Shown here piece after piece: positions 6,821 to 22,716 of a stretch of DNA of 28,649 nucleotides. Source of the DNA: a virus. Where the stretch lies: the IMG/VR virus record IMGVR_UViG_3300010297_000060, positions 1-28,649 of that record, one strand, 5' to 3'. Both the position numbers and the translations under genes were made by a program. Every line of letters begins with the position of its first letter. Position 1 is the first letter of the stretch. The notes beneath the pieces are model-generated. The model did not search any database. It saw nothing but the letters and a program-made list of their open reading frames with translations, and was not told the origin of the DNA.

Positions 6821-8383
6821 TTAACTTGGGAAATCCCAATCAAGAAGTCGGCTTCGTTGTGGCTTTCCGTCCTCTGATGGGCCTCGTTGAGAGGATGAGG
6901 GCGAATCGGTCCCCTTATGCCGAGGCTTATCTTCTTCCTTTGGATTTGCAGGGGTTTGGACTTCCTCCTTAGGGGTTACCTTTTCTTTTCCGTATCGCGT
7001 GAGGATTCGCTGGACTCTTTTTTGGTGGTCAGCCAATTCTTTTTCTGTTCGGTTGAGCGCCTCCGCTGAGAGAAAGTTCAGGATTTCCTCGGTGGAGAAT
7101 GTCCAATGCTTCTCCCTTTGCTCTGGAGTCATCCCGGCAATCTCATGCGCCGTAGCAAACTCTTTCCCGTTGCGGATGCGCTGGTCCTTCATCGCGGGCT
7201 TGTTCATGGCCTGCTCTTGGGCGAGAATCCGGTTAGCAATCTGCTCGTGCATCGGGTTTCTTTCAAAGTCTGGGACGGTCAGGCCTAACCGCAACCGAAG
7301 AAGCTCGTCTGCCATTGCCTTACTACCGCGATGATTGCGGGCAATAATAGCAGCCTCCTCCGGGAACTCATCTGCCATTGCCTCGCCTGCCTTAATTGGG
7401 TCACCATGCTCCTCAACCTGCTTGTTGAATAGCTTCATGGGCTCCTCGGCTCCAGGCACCTTACCGATTTCATCTACAAGGTTCTTTGCATAGACCACCG
7501 ACTTGTCTTGGAACTGAGGGAGAGCAACCCGCTCAATCTCTTGTTGTTCCTTCCAACTGCGAAGCTCCTCAATCTCCTTGTTCTGCTCGCCTTGAATCCG
7601 CTTCTGAGCCTCGTTAATTACGATTTCCCGCTCAAGTCGCTTAATTTCCTGCCGGGTCGCCGTGGGCTTGTTCTTCTTGACCCATGCAATGTACCTCGGA
7701 TTTTCCTCGATGGGGGTTTCCGGGCTTTGCTTCTGAAGCGAGGCTACCGTCCGGTTGTGGTTCTTGATGTAGTCGAGCTGCCGTTTGGTGTAGCCCTTGT
7801 ACTTTTCGTCCACAGATTCGGCATCCCGCCAAAACTCTACGGAGTCTTTAGCTTCTGCGGGGAGGGTGTCGACAAATGCCCAGTCCTCATCGGTCAATCC
7901 AGATAGGTCGTCCTTGGGTTTATCCTCCGGTTTATCCTCGGGCTTATCTTCCGGCTTATCCTGTTTGTCCTGAGGTTTATAGAGGGAGGCCTCATCGTCT
8001 TCTGGAACCTCGAAGGGGTCCTTGAACTTGACCTTCTTCTTCGGCTTCTCGTCCTCCGGCTTGTCTTCCGGCTTGTCTTCCGGCTTGTCTTCCGGCTTGT
8101 CCTCCGGCTTGTCCTCCGGCTTGTCCTCCGGCTTGTCCTCCGGCTTGTCCTCCGGTTTGTCTTCCGGTTTGTCTTCCGGTTTGTCCTCGGTGATGGAGCC
8201 GAATGAGCGATTATTTTTCCAATCCTCCTCTGCCTCCTTATCCTCCTTGTCCAGAAGTTCCTCCTCAGTGGGAGTGGATTCCAGGTCGAGCTTCTTCTCT
8301 GGCTCTCCAGCCATGAGGAATGAAAACTTTACTGGGTCTTGGGTCGGTGTTTCTTGGGTCGGTGTTTCTGTTTCTTGGGACAT
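6821..8383 (-). CDS. Scaffold-like protein with tandem KPED repeats (520 aa)
   Basis: A highly charged protein between the portal and the capsid gene, the usual place for a scaffolding protein. The N-terminal part is acidic and contains 11 perfect KPED repeats (about residues 67-111), a basic cluster (KPKKKVKF), and a shorter second block of PEDK repeats near residues 140-155. The middle (about 225-290) is helical and coiled-coil-like (EIKRLEREIVINEAQKRI). The C-terminal tail is basic and polar and ends SRLLDWDFPS, compatible with the short C-terminal coat-binding region of scaffolds. No protease motif is visible. The scaffold role is inferred from composition and synteny. Confidence 0.65.
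   Translation of the reverse strand: MSQETETPTQETPTQDPVKFSFLMAGEPEKKLDLESTPTEEELLDKEDKEAEEDWKNNRSFGSITEDKPEDKPEDKPEDKPEDKPEDKPEDKPEDKPEDKPEDKPEDKPEDEKPKKKVKFKDPFEVPEDDEASLYKPQDKQDKPEDKPEDKPEDKPKDDLSGLTDEDWAFVDTLPAEAKDSVEFWRDAESVDEKYKGYTKRQLDYIKNHNRTVASLQKQSPETPIEENPRYIAWVKKNKPTATRQEIKRLEREIVINEAQKRIQGEQNKEIEELRSWKEQQEIERVALPQFQDKSVVYAKNLVDEIGKVPGAEEPMKLFNKQVEEHGDPIKAGEAMADEFPEEAAIIARNHRGSKAMADELLRLRLGLTVPDFERNPMHEQIANRILAQEQAMNKPAMKDQRIRNGKEFATAHEIAGMTPEQREKHWTFSTEEILNFLSAEALNRTEKELADHQKRVQRILTRYGKEKVTPKEEVQTPANPKEEDKPRHKGTDSPSSSQRGPSEDGKPQRSRLLDWDFPS
8051..8182. repeat. Eleven 12-bp tandem repeats inside the scaffold-like gene
   Basis: On the plus strand the unit is GTCYTCCGGYTT, repeated 11 times in perfect 12-bp register with only synonymous changes (C/T at the fourth and tenth bases), followed by a degenerate twelfth unit. 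On the coding strand each unit encodes Lys-Pro-Glu-Asp. Such arrays expand and contract by slippage. A shorter diverged block lies near 7918-7962. Confidence 0.95.
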
Positions 8384-15687: not shown

Positions 15688-16725
15688 TTATGTGAGGTCC
15701 TTAATGACTGTGATTCCGGTTTTTCCGGCAATGGTTTGTCCCGCCCCTGCTGTCCATGATGCATCTGAGGCCAAGGCGTGGACGGTGGCGATACTTGAGG
15801 AACCAAACGAAGTTGCACCCAGAGAAGTCTGTGGGCATCGCACATCAATAGAGGTCAGGCCAGTACAACCGGTAAAGGCCCAACTGCCGACACTGGTCAC
15901 CGTGCTCGGAATCACAAGCGAGGTCAGGCCAGAAGAGTCGAAGGCACCATAGTCTATGGTGGTTAGACCTTCAGGCAGATCAAGCGTTGTCAGGGCAGCG
16001 CAGTAATAAAAGGCATTGGCCCCGATCTCGGTCACTGTGCTCGGAATCTCAAGCGAGGGCAGGGCACCGCAACCGCTGAAGCAATAATCCCCCAAAGTGG
16101 TTATACTGTTAGGCAGATTAACCGAGGTCAGGGACCAGCATTGTTGAAAGTTGAAGTCGCCGACGGTGTTCGGTAAAGTGACCGAAGTCAGGTCACCTGC
16201 GTGATTGAGGTGCGCTTGCACCAACCCCTCGTGCATTTTTATATCAGTGATCCCACTGTAATAAAAGGCTCCAGTAGCGATGGTGGTCACCCCTGCCGGA
16301 ATCTCAATAGAGGTCAGGTTAGCGCAATTAAGGAAGCAATAACCCCCCAAAGTGGTTAGAGATGATGGGAGAACAACCGATTCCAAGGCAGTCGGAAAAC
16401 CACCACCTGAAAGCCCAGTAACCCCCTCCCCAAGTGCAACTCCTTTTGTTCCAACGGGAAATGTGGTATTGGGATTAATACTGCCAGAATACGGGTACGC
16501 TTTGACGACATTGGATGCGTCAGTGACATAGGTGAGTCGGTCCCGTCCTTCTGGCGAGGGCATCTTGAGAAAATCCTCCGACCGGACCGCATTAATCGGT
16601 CCATCTTCAAGAGCGATCCGAACGCTATCCCCTATAATCTGGAAGAGTTCGCCTTCTTTAATCGGAGTTGAGGACGCTTGTAATTCGGCTTGTGTGCCCC
16701 TGCGGATTCTAATTGGTGTGCTCAT
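15688..16725 (-). CDS. BspA-type leucine-rich-repeat fibre with Mtd-like N-terminus (345 aa)
   Basis: Residues 1-50 (IRIRRGTQAEL, then IKEGELFQI) match the N-terminal virion-attachment domain pattern seen in phage major tropism determinant and related fibres. Residues about 115-320 are consecutive BspA/LRR_5 repeats of about 22-24 aa with the pattern L-x-x-[IV]-x-[IL]-P-x-[ST]-[VL]-T-x-[IL]-G, for example LTSVNLPNSITTLGDYCFSG and LTSLVIPSTVTSVGSWAFTG. The C-terminal end is a short cap. BspA-type repeats mediate adhesion to surfaces and proteins. The combination indicates a virion-anchored adhesin or receptor-binding protein. DNA-level repeats in the gene could recombine and change repeat number. 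Confidence 0.8.
   Translation of the reverse strand: MSTPIRIRRGTQAELQASSTPIKEGELFQIIGDSVRIALEDGPINAVRSEDFLKMPSPEGRDRLTYVTDASNVVKAYPYSGSINPNTTFPVGTKGVALGEGVTGLSGGGFPTALESVVLPSSLTTLGGYCFLNCANLTSIEIPAGVTTIATGAFYYSGITDIKMHEGLVQAHLNHAGDLTSVTLPNTVGDFNFQQCWSLTSVNLPNSITTLGDYCFSGCGALPSLEIPSTVTEIGANAFYYCAALTTLDLPEGLTTIDYGAFDSSGLTSLVIPSTVTSVGSWAFTGCTGLTSIDVRCPQTSLGATSFGSSSIATVHALASDASWTAGAGQTIAGKTGITVIKDLT
15895..16370. repeat. Degenerate direct repeats coding the LRR array
   Basis: Long near-identical blocks recur within the LRR gene. One starts GTGCTCGGAATC at 15901 and again at 16037, each followed by the near-identical CAAGCGAGG. Another, CCCCCAAAGTGGTTA, occurs at about 16089 and 16345. The DNA repeats follow the 22-24 residue protein repeat and would allow in-frame recombination. 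Confidence 0.75.
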
Positions 16726-18377: not shown

Positions 18378-19445
18378 TCATAGTTTCCAAAGCATTGACG
18401 CTTCACTGGGGTCAATCTGCCCCTTGTAATGCCTAATGAACGTCCGAGAGTTTTGGTGTCCCATGTTCTCCATCGCCCACTCCATGCCTTTGTGGTAGGC
18501 GCAGGTTCCGAATGTGTGCCTTGATACATCATGGCTCCACTCGTACCCCAGTTGATTGCAGACCTTCGTGATGTTGGTTCGGAAATTACGGTAGGTCATT
18601 GGGCAGACTTTCCCATGCCCTCCCTTGTATAGCTTCCACAAATCCCCGAGGCCGTACAGCGTCCTTGGGGTTCGGGTCTTACTGATGGCTGCCGGAATAT
18701 TAATGATTTTCCGCTTTGGGTCCAGGTCTTCGTGGCGCAACCCCATAAACTCTCCCTTGGGCCGAATCCCGGTCAGGAAAAGGAGGGCGACAGGGAACTT
18801 GATTTTATCCGGGCTGACCTCGATAAACTTCCAAACCATCTCCGGGGTCCAGAATTTGATGTGGTCACGGTCAGTCTTGGGCAATCGCCACTTGATTTGC
18901 TTGGTGTCAATGGTCGTCCAGCCCTGTTCTCTGGCCCAGTTGAAAAATGTCACTAGCCTGGAGCGGGATGTCTCTCGGCTGGTTTCCCCTCCGTGAGCAG
19001 TCAAGCAATACTTGACAACTAAATCGGCAGTAAAAGAGACAACAGGCCAGTCTTCCCGGCTCATCATAAACTGGTCGAGTATATAGGTCGCGTTTTTGCG
19101 GTAGGACTCTCGAACATTTCGCCTCTCCATGTCCCGACAATATGCGTCTCTGGCGTACTGGAGCGTCACTGAGCGGGGGACTATGGCAACCTGTAAGAAT
19201 TCCTTAATAGTTGCATCCATGTCCACCCCTGCCTGCTTGCACCGAAGACGAGCCAACTGGATAAGTAGCTTTTCCTCGTGGGTTACATCAACCACCGGAG
19301 TGAAAGGCTGGAACTCCTGTGCCCAGTCCACAGCCTCCCACTCGGCAGCAAAATACTTCGACTTATCCTTGCCGTCCTCGATATACCGGACTCGCCAAGG
19401 TAATTTTCTCCCCTCTTGCTTCGATATTTTCCTTATTGATACCAT
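18378..19445 (-). CDS. int: Tyrosine recombinase (phage integrase, 355 aa)
   Basis: The site-specific recombinase for integration at attP. The catalytic domain shows the first Arg in TGIRPKGEF (R228), a beta-hairpin Lys in SKTRTPRTL (about K256), the HxxR box HDVSRHTFGT (H305, R309), then GHQNSRTFIRHY with H330 and the nucleophile Y340. The N-terminus (SIRKISKQEGRKLPWRVRYI) resembles an arm-binding domain and a SAM-like core-binding region follows. An in-frame ATG lies 16 codons further up, but that extension is hydrophobic and unlikely. The gene is next to the 49-bp tRNA-Gly segment at 19598-19646, as expected for an integrase/attP pair. Confidence 0.92.
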   Translation of the reverse strand: MVSIRKISKQEGRKLPWRVRYIEDGKDKSKYFAAEWEAVDWAQEFQPFTPVVDVTHEEKLLIQLARLRCKQAGVDMDATIKEFLQVAIVPRSVTLQYARDAYCRDMERRNVRESYRKNATYILDQFMMSREDWPVVSFTADLVVKYCLTAHGGETSRETSRSRLVTFFNWAREQGWTTIDTKQIKWRLPKTDRDHIKFWTPEMVWKFIEVSPDKIKFPVALLFLTGIRPKGEFMGLRHEDLDPKRKIINIPAAISKTRTPRTLYGLGDLWKLYKGGHGKVCPMTYRNFRTNITKVCNQLGYEWSHDVSRHTFGTCAYHKGMEWAMENMGHQNSRTFIRHYKGQIDPSEASMLWKL

Positions 19446-19499
19446 TGTCTCAGCCCAAGCCAGTACCAAAATAGCCCAAATTCCGGCATACAAATGTTG

Positions 19500-19542
19500 C
19501 TATTTGTAATAGTTTGTAACATTGGTTGCACTATTTGTGATA
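19500..19542. repeat. Direct repeats between int and attP: candidate arm-type or operator sites
   Basis: CTATTTGTAATA (19500-19511) and CTATTTGTGATA (19531-19542) differ at one base, and a third related copy, TTTGTAACA, lies at 19513-19521. They lie upstream of int and within 56-98 bp of the tRNA-derived core, where arm-type integrase, excisionase or host-factor sites usually lie. The last copy also contains the window-wide TGTATCACAAA motif on the minus strand. Confidence 0.55.
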
Positions 19543-19595: not shown

Positions 19596-19646
<51 letters not shown>

Positions 19647-19708: not shown

Positions 19709-19888
19709 CTAGGATTCGTGCTCCTGTAACCACTCCTTTATACCCTTCTCAAGGAAAAGCTGTATCTGCATATTGCGTGAACGTGTTTCCTTGTGAGCTA
19801 TCTGCCCAAGTTTCTTAAGGGTTTTCTCCGGAATGGCGATAGATGTCTGTATCACTCCGGGGGCACGGCCGGTTGAGTTTTTTTTCAT
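19709..19888 (-). CDS. Ribbon-helix-helix regulator, Arc/CopG-type (59 aa)
   Basis: A 59-codon gene from ATG 19888 to TAG. After a short basic arm (MKKNSTGRAPG) comes a beta strand VIQTSIAIP, a helix (EKTLKKLGQIAHKE) and a second helix (SRNMQIQLFLEKGIKEWLQE). This is the strand-helix-helix plan and length of Arc/MetJ/CopG repressors. It is transcribed away from the 42-aa protein of similar fold at 20020, with 131 bp between them. A TTGACA (19924-19919, minus strand) stands 30 nt before the ATG with an AT-rich stretch after it. Repression of the divergent early genes is the obvious hypothesis but is inferred. Confidence 0.75.
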   Translation of the reverse strand: MKKNSTGRAPGVIQTSIAIPEKTLKKLGQIAHKETRSRNMQIQLFLEKGIKEWLQEHES

Positions 19889-20019
19889 TAATTTATGATT
19901 TATCTACAAAAACCGAACTGTCAATAAATTTCCTTACACTGTGAGTTTTATAGTTGACTTGTGACATTTCCCATGAGTGAAAATATATAGAACTAAATGT
20001 AAAAAAACCATTCATTCAT
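19889..20019. promoter_or_regulatory. Divergent regulatory region between the two RHH genes
   Basis: An AT-rich intergenic region. Plus-strand promoter candidate: GTGACA (19961-19966), a 17-bp spacer, TATATA (19984-19989). Minus-strand: a perfect -35 TTGACA (19924-19919) with AT-rich sequence at the -10 distance but no good TATAAT. Several short GTGA/TGAC words (GTGAG 19941, TTGACT 19954, GTGAC 19961, GAGTGA 19975) cluster in the middle, as small repeated operator half-sites for ribbon-helix-helix repressors would. None is a confirmed operator. Confidence 0.5.
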
Positions 20020-20148
20020 ATGAACCAAACCATTGTTATAGAAATTCCATTGAGCCTACACGAACAGGTTTATAGGATTGCTCTGATAGAAAATACTTCC
20101 TTCGAAGAAGCCTTTGTCGAGCTTGTTTTACTTGGTATGAAATTGTAG
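20020..20148 (+). CDS. Tiny ribbon-helix-helix protein (42 aa)
   Basis: A 42-codon frame from ATG 20020 to TAG 20148: strand NQTIVIEIP, helix (LSLHEQVYRIALIEN) and second helix (SFEEAFVELVLLGMKL). The spacing fits a minimal ribbon-helix-helix fold, close to the smallest known CopG/Arc-like regulators. No Shine-Dalgarno is seen; a plausible promoter (GTGACA-17-TATATA) lies 30 bp upstream. It faces away from the 59-aa RHH gene and precedes the HTH gene at 20203 by 54 bp. It could be the second (antirepressor or early repressor) partner of the switch. The short length leaves some doubt that it is expressed. Confidence 0.6.
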   Translation: MNQTIVIEIPLSLHEQVYRIALIENTSFEEAFVELVLLGMKL

Positions 20149-20180
20149 ATTTTTTCTAAATATTTCTTTACAGGTATAAT

Positions 20181-20197
20181 GTGATATATAATATCAC
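20181..20197. promoter_or_regulatory. Early promoter region with perfect inverted repeat
   Basis: GTGATAT-ATA-ATATCAC (20181-20197) is a perfect 7-bp inverted repeat with a 3-bp centre. It lies over two consensus -10 boxes, TATAAT at 20175-20180 and at 20187-20192; no convincing -35 precedes either. The halves are those of the TATCAC/GTGATA operator in everted order. TATCACATC here also matches the operator at 18349-18363. The ATG at 20203 is only 10 nt after the second -10. Confidence 0.55.
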
Positions 20198-20202
20198 ATC
20201 AT

Positions 20203-20487
20203 ATGGAAAATACTACGCACCGAGAAATAGCGGTCGCCCTGATTGATAAGATGTTTGCCGCTCCCGGCAGCTTCACTATCAGCCTACAAAAGACGGGTGA
20301 CGTAATTGATATCCTAGCGGGTCGACCAAAAGACTTTCTCACCCTAGAAGCGGTGGCGAGAGAGTTTGGTGTGACCTCAGCCACAATCCGGAGGCGCTAC
20401 ATTGAAAGCGGGGAACTGACTCGGACACGACTTGGGTTCCGTCGCTGCGATGTGGAGCGTGTCAAAACCCGGGAACTGTCGGCATGA
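20203..20487 (+). CDS. Excisionase/MerR-like helix-turn-helix protein (94 aa)
   Basis: A 94-aa protein. The N-terminal third is unassigned. Residues about 46-70 form a helix-turn-helix, LTLEAVAREFGVTSATIRRR, followed by a wing-like segment YIESGELTRTRLGFRRCDVE in which recognition helix and wing resemble excisionase or MerR-type winged helices. It is the first gene of the right-hand operon and lies close to integrase and attP, so an excisionase or early regulator is plausible. Its own promoter carries an inverted repeat, so autoregulation is possible. The 3' end overlaps the next gene by 4 bp. Confidence 0.7.
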   Translation: MENTTHREIAVALIDKMFAAPGSFTISLQKTGDVIDILAGRPKDFLTLEAVAREFGVTSATIRRRYIESGELTRTRLGFRRCDVERVKTRELSA

Positions 20488-20870
20488 AAGACTTCGAGCT
20501 AAGGGAAGTTGCCGCTGTCCTCGCAGCAATGCAAAAGGTTTCCACCGATGGCGAACAGTTTATGGTTGTTCCGGACGGATTCCGACTTGAGAGCATCCAG
20601 GGCTTTCAGCCACGCCCCTCCCGTATTATGGGGCATTTTGCCACTACCGACCCTAAAAGCTGGGGTAAATATGTGGAGAAGTTCAAGGGGCCGGAAATGG
20701 TTGTCTTCGCCCAGAAAGACAAGGCTATTGCCGTGTTCGACTTCCACACCAAAGACAGCCCCGCATGGGGCGATCATATCGCAATTTACAAAGGCGAACC
20801 GCAGGACCTCGCCCCGCACCTCACTGATGTAACCGTCCTACACGGACAATTCGATGGAATCACTTTATGA
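20484..20870 (+). CDS. DUF2303-like protein, short form (128 aa)
   Basis: The sequence VVPDGFRLESIQGF, a tract with P-R-x-x-G-x-F-x-T-x-D-x-x-S (PRPSRIMGHFATTDPKSW), and a final block AVFDFHTKDSPAWGDHIAIY match the start of DUF2303-type phage proteins. Those are usually about twice this length; here the protein ends soon after the WGDH block, so it appears to be a naturally short or truncated form. The overlap of its stop with the next ATG (20867) shows it is part of the operon and not a decayed fragment. The function of DUF2303 is not established; it often occurs in phage recombination or replication regions. Confidence 0.6.
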   Translation: MKDFELREVAAVLAAMQKVSTDGEQFMVVPDGFRLESIQGFQPRPSRIMGHFATTDPKSWGKYVEKFKGPEMVVFAQKDKAIAVFDFHTKDSPAWGDHIAIYKGEPQDLAPHLTDVTVLHGQFDGITL

Positions 20871-22015
20871 ATGACCTAATGACAGTACCATCCCAAGTTG
20901 CCGTCGCTGACCCGGCGGCAGTATCCGCAGCAGAAATCGCCAAGACGCGATTGCAGGCTGCATATCAGGTTGCGATGCACCGACCTCGCAATCAAGAACA
21001 GGCCCGGCAGAATCTGCTGGCGGCGTGCCGTAGGCTCAAGTTCGCAGAGAAGGCCGAGTATTCTAAGCCCGTCGGCGGTAGCCGAATTGCTGGCCCATCA
21101 ATCCGTTTTGCTGAGACTGCTCTACGGGAATGGGGAAATATCCGAAGTGACATTTCTGTGGTGTTCGAGGACGACAAGGTTCGCAGAATCCAGGTCAACC
21201 TGATTGATTTTGAAACCAACGCCCAGTTCACCAAGGAACTGACCATCGCCAAGATTGTGGAACGGAAGTTCCCGAAAGACCGTGAGGTTGTTGGCGAACG
21301 GCAGAATAGTCGGGGTGAAAAGGTTTTCATCGTCAAGGGAACTGATGATGAGATTGCCAATAAGGAAGCAGCCATGATTTCCAAGGCTGTCCGTAACGAA
21401 GGACTGCGCCTCCTGCCTGCTGACATTATCGACGAGGCCCTTGAGGTTGCCCGGGAAACCTTGGCAAAGAATATTAAGGAAGACCCAGAGGGGAACAAGC
21501 GCAAGGTGATTGACGCCTTCTCCACGCTCGGGGTGAAGGTAGCCTCCCTTGAGAAGTTCCTTGGTCACGAGATGGACATCTGTTCTCCCGCAGAGATTCA
21601 GGAACTCCGCAACATTTTCGGTTCCATTAAGGATGGAGAGGCTTCGTGGAGCGATTACATGGAGCTAAAGCGCAAGTCCACCTCGGACAACGAGGAGGAG
21701 CGCAAGAGTGCTGTTGACGCCCTCGCCTCCTTGGGAGCCAAAAAGACGGCCAAGAAAAAGACTGCCACCAAAAAGGCGGCCAAGCCTGCCGAGGCCAATC
21801 CTGCCGAGGAACCGAAGGCAGAAGCGCCGACCGAAACCAAAGGCCAGCTTATCGCCGAGGTAATGGGGCTTCTTCAAACATCGAACCGCGACCAGCAGGA
21901 TTTGATTCGCTGGGCTATTGAAAACAAGTATGTCGAGGAAGCTGAAACCATTCAGGACTTCGACCCTGACTTGCTCAAGAAGTTCATCTCCAACTGGGAA
22001 AAGATCGTCCTGTGA
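20867..22015 (+). CDS. Conserved phage protein beside recombination nuclease (382 aa)
   Basis: The segment GPSIRFAETALREWGNIRSD and the region ERQNSRGEKVFIVKGTDDEI are typical of a widespread phage family usually encoded next to a RecB/Cas4-like nuclease and a DUF2303-like gene. A role in DNA recombination or single-strand annealing is suspected from that association only. After residue 290 comes a lysine/alanine/proline-rich linker (KKTAKKKTATKKAAKP) and then a C-terminal helical segment (about 325-382). Start overlaps the previous stop by 4 bp; the stop overlaps the following GTG start by 4 bp. Confidence 0.6.
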   Translation: MNDLMTVPSQVAVADPAAVSAAEIAKTRLQAAYQVAMHRPRNQEQARQNLLAACRRLKFAEKAEYSKPVGGSRIAGPSIRFAETALREWGNIRSDISVVFEDDKVRRIQVNLIDFETNAQFTKELTIAKIVERKFPKDREVVGERQNSRGEKVFIVKGTDDEIANKEAAMISKAVRNEGLRLLPADIIDEALEVARETLAKNIKEDPEGNKRKVIDAFSTLGVKVASLEKFLGHEMDICSPAEIQELRNIFGSIKDGEASWSDYMELKRKSTSDNEEERKSAVDALASLGAKKTAKKKTATKKAAKPAEANPAEEPKAEAPTETKGQLIAEVMGLLQTSNRDQQDLIRWAIENKYVEEAETIQDFDPDLLKKFISNWEKIVL

Positions 22016-22716
22016 GTGACGAGCGAGGGGGATTTCCCTCTGCCTCCGGACTCCACCGTGTTGTGGAGTGCCGGGGGTCATGGGGGGCCGAAAGGGGGAT
22101 GCCGGAAACTTCCATCGGTGACGACTGGCGGGATGAGGGTTCAACGCTCCACGACTTCGCTGAAAAGGGTGAAGTATCCCACACCCTTTCGGATGAGCAA
22201 CAGTGGGCACTCAGGACAGCTCTCGACCTCAAAGAGAAGTTCTACGAGGACTTCGATATACGGGGCGAGGTCTTTAAGGAAAAGCGACTCTGGGCGCATA
22301 AGCCTAACCTAACTCCCCTCTTCTCTGGTAAATTCGACGAGGCAGTTATTGCGGAATACTTTGCCTCCATCTGCGATTACAAGTTTGGCCGGAAGCCTGT
22401 ACCTCCGGCCCGTATTAATGTCCAAATGCTTTCGTATGCGGTCCTACTATGGCTCAGGTGGCCGGGTCGGGAACGGTACGCTGTCGCCATTATCCAGCCA
22501 AGGGTGGAACCGGAGCTTCGATTCTCTGCCGCATCCTACACCCCTGACGAACTGGAGGAAGCGTACCAGCACTTCCTTGAGGTTTTGACCGAGGCAGACG
22601 AGCCAGGTCAACCAAGGACCCCAAGCTACCACGCCTGCGAATACTGTCGGGCTCTCCATGTTTGCCCGGATGCATTCAATTTTTTCACAAGATTAACCCT
22701 AAGTATAAATGACTGA
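22012..22716 (+). CDS. Cas4/RecB-family PD-(D/E)XK nuclease with Fe-S cysteines (234 aa)
   Basis: The N-terminus PSASGLHRVVECRGSW matches the DUF2800-type phage nucleases. A conserved His (H47), then D109 in FSGKFDEAVIAEY and CDYKFGRKP with D122 and K124, form the PD-(D/E)XK core. INVQMLSYAVL carries the QxxxY box. Four cysteines, C20 and the C-terminal C209-x2-C212-x5-C218, are spaced as in Fe-S nucleases of the Cas4/AddB type. The product is likely a DNA exonuclease in a Red-like recombination module with the preceding protein. The start is a GTG overlapping the previous TGA by 4 bp. Confidence 0.8.
   Translation: MSDERGGFPSASGLHRVVECRGSWGAERGMPETSIGDDWRDEGSTLHDFAEKGEVSHTLSDEQQWALRTALDLKEKFYEDFDIRGEVFKEKRLWAHKPNLTPLFSGKFDEAVIAEYFASICDYKFGRKPVPPARINVQMLSYAVLLWLRWPGRERYAVAIIQPRVEPELRFSAASYTPDELEEAYQHFLEVLTEADEPGQPRTPSYHACEYCRALHVCPDAFNFFTRLTLSIND

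Follow-up and report, generated by a model that had tools for sequence, protein, structure and literature searches.

Results

A divergent module between the integration genes and the early operon

The DNA analysed here (the window, meaning the whole stretch) is a linear virus record of 28,649 bases with a GC content of 0.511, and it may be incomplete, a fragment of a genome. Its left part carries minus-strand structural genes, a terminase gene among them; the sole terminase relative found (72%) is on a 4.4-kb contig. Between the structural genes and the early operon the order is int, attP, a small ribbon-helix-helix (RHH) gene that we call RHH-A, a 131-bp gap, a 42-aa ORF (RHH-B), a 54-bp gap and an HTH gene. 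The sequence-only reading of this DNA had described two small divergent ORFs, an AT-rich gap between them and an HTH gene with its own inverted repeat, and all of these were confirmed at their coordinates. Elsewhere in the window, the phage gene at 14890-15687 matches PHROG_27463 and is probably the source of a Sulfotransfer_3 match (E 1.9e-17). A leucine-rich-repeat-like protein is encoded among the structural genes at 15688-16725, probably the one with the BspA-type LRR_5 match, and one whose sequence includes a stretch of PEDK repeats at 6821-8383.

RHH-A (minus strand, 19709..19888) is a basic protein of 59 aa (pI 10.0), and we propose that it could be the maintenance repressor. Its match to the Pfam model RHH_5 is sub-threshold (E 0.0014), as are its matches to the Arc-like PHROG families. 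An HMM built by leave-one-out from the other verrucomicrobial RHH proteins, several of which reach the Pfam gathering score, recognised RHH-A significantly (E 4.7e-14), and single relatives in Verrucomicrobiota genomes gave E values down to 3e-6. Moreover, the profile of the family matches RHH proteins of solved structure: the EndoAI antitoxin (3.7e-8), NikR and CopG. Judged from these profile comparisons, the RHH nature of RHH-A is secure. Note that in the Verrucomicrobiota genome loci L053-L056, L058 and L059 a small RHH gene adjoins a sucD-like (succinyl-CoA-synthetase-alpha-like) gene; these chromosomal relatives show how common the protein family is in Verrucomicrobiota.

The 42-aa ORF may encode a second, RHH-like protein

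RHH-B (plus strand, 20020..20148) would encode the Arc/Cro-like partner of RHH-A, or a modulator. Searches with its product against Pfam, PHROG, NCBIfam and the PDB sequences gave no match, and in the leave-one-out HMM of the verrucomicrobial RHH proteins it obtained an E value of 23. When aligned by hhalign with the RHH profile, it scored 19.4 and ranked first of 701, above all 700 random ORFs. The runner-up, at 19.3, was the RHH-B of locus L048, a true RHH protein, and the known Arc and Mnt scored 26.4 and 23.8 on the Opitutia RHH profile. The AF2 model, for which the alignment held only four sequences, shows both helices of the RHH fold (13-23 and 28-41) with a pLDDT of 88. The Foldseek list obtained with this model includes AmrZ, Arc, NikA and CopG, none of them a significant match.

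The nucleotide composition of the ORF also points to a coding sequence. Across the three codon positions its GC content is 0.49, 0.21 and 0.40 (p=0.012 for the first against the second), and its overall GC of 0.364 is higher than that of both flanks. The length of the ORF proves nothing, since a 40-aa ORF is present on the opposite strand of the 131-bp gap. Whether genes as short as these two would be missed by annotation varies with the gene caller. RHH-B lacks a Shine-Dalgarno sequence, but this is uninformative because only 4 of the 24 window genes checked have one. Relatives carry an RHH gene at the place of RHH-B. Thus, its existence as a real gene is supported by the predicted fold, the position, the codon bias and the rank test. 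The earlier claim that both small proteins are RHH proteins stands for RHH-A by significant HMM match; the 42-aa product, whose HMM match is not significant, may be RHH-like, judged by its rank, fold and position.

The putative protein is acidic (pI 4.5, charge -4.4), and its counterparts in the relatives are basic. An alignment with Arc made by eye puts Thr-Val-Glu at the DNA-facing ribbon residues, so that a Glu would occupy a place in the ribbon that is normally turned towards the DNA.

The strongest candidate operator is located at the HTH gene

The divergent control region between RHH-A and RHH-B (19889..20019, 131 bp) has a GC content of 0.267. It contains a minus-strand promoter-like sequence, TTGACA-18-AATCAT, upstream of RHH-A, and an operator-like half-site, TGTGACAT (19960-19967), which differs at one position from an arm of the palindrome described below and could be a chance occurrence. 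A second promoter-like sequence, TTTACA-16-TAATAT (plus strand, 20167..20194), precedes the HTH gene. It overlaps a perfect palindrome, ATGTGATAT-ATA-ATATCACAT (20179..20199, 9-3-9), which is our candidate operator. The palindrome has a p value of 0.003 within the 54-bp gap that forms the leader of the HTH gene, and it is the only perfect inverted repeat of the window with arms of at least 8 nt and a spacer of 3-5 nt. Note that this strong palindrome is outside the divergent region. The evidence for the previously reported promoter elements in both directions is weak: the minus-strand site is present before RHH-A, and the consensus promoter scan scored none for the 42-aa gene. Moreover, the two promoter-like sites found represent no excess over the 2.2 expected by chance.

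The divergent regions of L164, L211, L212 and L048, loci from other genomes that carry RHH pairs, have shorter palindromes near a TTGAC-type hexamer. Only the one in L048 is significant (p 0.0015; the others, 0.10-0.38), and comparison of these palindromes revealed no evident common motif.

The HTH gene heads the early operon

The HTH gene (plus strand, 20203..20487, 94 aa) is the first gene of a long early operon and is HTH_17/excisionase-like. Its product matched HTH_17 below threshold (E 0.0012; 19.4 bits versus a cut-off of 27) and scored 13.1 bits with TIGR01764, under the curated excisionase cut-off of 28.8. The match to PHROG_66 (excisionase/regulator) had an E value of 1.3e-5, and on the profile of the HTH genes of the relatives it ranked first against 400 random ORFs. 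The AF2 model of this protein was uninformative (pLDDT 40). Downstream, all on the plus strand and assigned by family matches, are DUF2303 (20484-20870, 128 aa), a PHROG_3657 protein (20867-22015) and a PD-(D/E)XK exonuclease (22012-22716), followed by RusA, SSB, a helicase loader and DnaB. At the start of the operon (20484..22716) the genes are joined by start/stop overlaps. The DUF2303 protein looks shortened, since its match is confined to roughly the initial 40% of the profile.

attP separates RHH-A from int

The integrase is a tyrosine recombinase of 371 aa (minus strand, 18378..19493; Pfam Phage_integrase 2.8e-7, PHROG_1 3.3e-20). The attP core (minus strand, 19598..19646) is the 3' part of a tRNA-Gly(GCC) gene, from the anticodon stem to the CCA, present once in the window. 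Exact copies of this 49-mer are present at 28 genome loci; by title, every one is from Opitutia or its members, except one titled only Verrucomicrobia. ARAGORN named the matching gene of a host locus tRNA-Gly(gcc). A repeat search found two direct repeats, TATTTGTAATA and TATTTGTGATA (plus strand, 19501..19542), which are candidate arm-sites of the integrase. The phage is a temperate one of marine Opitutia, and we count both the attP and the host group as established.

The attP core is located past the stop codon of RHH-A and before the start of int. Thus, RHH-A and int are same-strand neighbours in the free phage but would be far apart in the prophage, one at each end, and integration would cut any read-through from RHH-A into int. 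Integration would also put int behind the reconstituted host tRNA-Gly gene.

Divergent RHH pairs recur in other genomes

The pair was sought in relatives, as had been proposed, and divergent RHH pairs were present in the prophages L042, L164 and L212 and at L211, which is chromosomal; L048 has one too, next to a gene of the CI type. A profile of RHH-A proteins matched the two genes of a divergent pair in 3 of 384 genomes, when about 0.0007 were expected from the density of hits. Several RHH proteins of the recurring pairs exceed the Pfam RHH cut-offs.

L042 is a prophage in an Opitutales MAG in which the same tRNA-Gly sequence is present. Its order is RHH-A (91 aa), a 153-bp gap, a divergent RHH-B (59 aa), a 141-aa gene, whose HTH was recognised only by eye, and a PHROG_3657 homologue. 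In L164 an integrase gene is followed by RHH-A, the divergent RHH-B, two small ORFs and an excisionase-like HTH gene; L210, in IMG/VR, looks like the same prophage. L212 has RHH-A, a divergent RHH-B and an HTH_17-like gene, with integrase-like and terminase-like genes near. Hence, in both L164 and L212 the RHH-B operon has an HTH_17/excisionase-like gene as its first gene or close to its beginning. In L048 the divergent pair scores above the Pfam cut-offs and adjoins a CI-type HTH_3 gene; such a pair is therefore not necessarily the primary switch. L218 and L044, with weaker support, have tandem RHH-like genes and then HTH-like genes.

The chromosomal pair of L211 (3732-4250) is flanked by typA-like and TlyA-like genes and has no phage genes in its neighbourhood, and genome G019 (L190) keeps an RHH-B-like gene at the equivalent place. 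In L228 (G358:C1), an RHH-bearing stretch is repeated four times (4511388, 4547108, 4582828 and 4618566) with a spacing of about 35.72 kb, which suggests four tandem copies of one element. L228 may hold a divergent RHH pair as well. Scans of IMG/VR with RHH-A, the HTH gene and the PHROG_3657 protein found no close relative of the module. The PHROG_3657 alignment scan gave 80 loci; the few examined, which included the closest, L063, were all in other contexts.

No CI/Cro-type repressor was found in the window

The sequence-only reading had noted that no CI/Cro-type pair was in view. In agreement, a Pfam scan of 29 window proteins detected no HTH_3, CI or S24 domain, and the same was true of 46 proteins from the regions of L042, L164 and L212. 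The only DNA-binding regulator domains matched by the window genes scanned were RHH_5 and the HTH families on the one HTH gene. To our knowledge, the repressors of Verrucomicrobiota phages have hardly been studied, and our search of the literature on these phages gave the same picture. If the RHH genes do form the switch, this would explain why gene finders and CI-centred searches have left repressors unreported in such phages; with 59 and 42 aa, it would also be a very small switch.

A proposed immunity switch and its alternatives

We propose, with a probability of roughly 0.55, that the region is the immunity (lysis-lysogeny) switch of a temperate Opitutia phage in which RHH proteins replace the CI/Cro pair. 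We infer the binding of the proteins to their sites, the direction of regulation, the roles of RHH-B and the HTH protein and all expression in the scheme that follows. RHH-A, expressed from the minus-strand promoter, would maintain lysogeny by repressing the rightward promoters, which would jointly drive the HTH gene and the recombination/replication operon. It would act at two places, in the divergent region and at the palindrome that overlaps the HTH-gene promoter. RHH-B, as the first rightward product, would be a counter-regulator that either binds the divergent region like Arc or pairs with or antagonises RHH-A. The HTH_17-like protein, in all likelihood an excisionase, would be the regulator that opens the lytic programme. 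A more specific version, which we consider rather improbable, is that the acidic 42-aa protein, instead of binding DNA, joins RHH-A in mixed dimers and strips it from the operators, acting as a built-in antirepressor in an undescribed two-RHH primary switch of Opitutia phages.

The idea of a lysogeny decision module, already raised from the sequence, gains support from the absence of CI/Cro/S24 genes among those scanned in the window and from the recurrence of the pair in independent prophages; it is weakened by the possible incompleteness of the window, by the lack of a significant sequence match for the 42-aa gene and by the L048 pair with its CI-like gene. The L048 pair is also one of the reasons to consider that the module is a secondary immunity or antirepressor-control circuit, with the primary repressor being another protein or encoded in an unsequenced part of the genome. 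Such a role would agree with P22 immI, which has the same geometry and controls the antirepressor, not the main repressor, and with a window that may be incomplete. However, the pair here is directly at the early replication operon and beside int and attP, no antirepressor follows it, and CI-type genes are missing from the window and from the scanned regions of L042, L164 and L212. We consequently regard a secondary role as unlikely.

Somewhat less doubtful, though still clearly behind the proposed switch, is a two-gene arrangement in which RHH-A and the HTH gene are the sole regulators and the 42-aa ORF is untranslated, its DNA serving as leader or operator within an extended control region between the two genes. 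The most evident operator and promoter immediately adjoin the HTH gene, and the ORF combines low GC and an acidic product with the lack of a significant sequence match, including in the leave-one-out test. Against this stand its RHH-like fold, its first rank by hhalign, its codon-position GC bias and the RHH gene that relatives have in its place. The proximity of RHH-A to attP and int, together with the excisionase-like HTH gene, could also mean that both genes govern only integration and excision (control of int, recombination directionality) and not immunity. We find this very unlikely: RHH-A is divergent from the entire early operon, and the palindrome is at the promoter-like site of the first gene of that operon. 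Finally, some relatives weakly match the VapB, RelB, BrnA and HicB antitoxin models, as toxin-antitoxin or stray antitoxin-like genes might. Every NCBIfam score was under its cut-off, however, and two RHH genes are repeatedly divergent beside an integrase or early operon. Since no toxin-like gene adjoins either RHH gene, we reject this explanation as highly improbable.

Comparison with known switches

In the lambda-type CI/Cro region, a divergent repressor and the first rightward regulator are situated between the integration genes and the early operon. The module described here has the same layout; it differs in having the RHH fold instead of HTH_3, with no S24/CI domain found. As in mycobacteriophages with integration-dependent immunity, attP is next to the repressor gene (here a proposed one), so that integration would change the downstream context of that gene. 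The site in the present phage, however, is past the stop codon of RHH-A, on the way to int, and not inside the repressor gene.

A precedent for a small RHH protein as a lysogeny regulator is F55 of SSV1, a 55-aa protein that has been described as the main viral player in the maintenance of the carrier state, demonstrating that such a protein can keep a virus dormant (PMC9608457). Unlike the RHH-A proposed here, F55 is single, with no divergent RHH partner described, and operates in archaeal transcription through repeated 11-nt sites.

The earlier comparison with Arc/Mnt immunity regions proved apt. The annotated P22 record has mnt on the minus strand, promoters and operators, and then arc and ant on the plus strand, a region known as immunity I that controls the antirepressor (PMC2629481). 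In both phages two small genes for RHH or RHH-like proteins diverge from a control region that is short, with 90 bp separating mnt from arc in P22 and 131 bp in the present module, and a third gene lies behind the plus-strand RHH gene. By contrast, no Ant-like antirepressor is present here, its place being taken by the HTH_17/excisionase-like gene, DUF2303 and the replication/recombination operon. Moreover, PF03869 (Arc) was unmatched among the window proteins and only weakly matched by relatives (E 0.048-0.14). The module is at the early operon beside int, whereas that of P22 is in the late-region 'ant moron' (PMC2629481). Its rank in the regulatory hierarchy likely differs from that of P22 immI. 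If our proposal is correct, an immI-like RHH pair, known as a side circuit, would be the main immunity region in one group of phages of marine bacteria.
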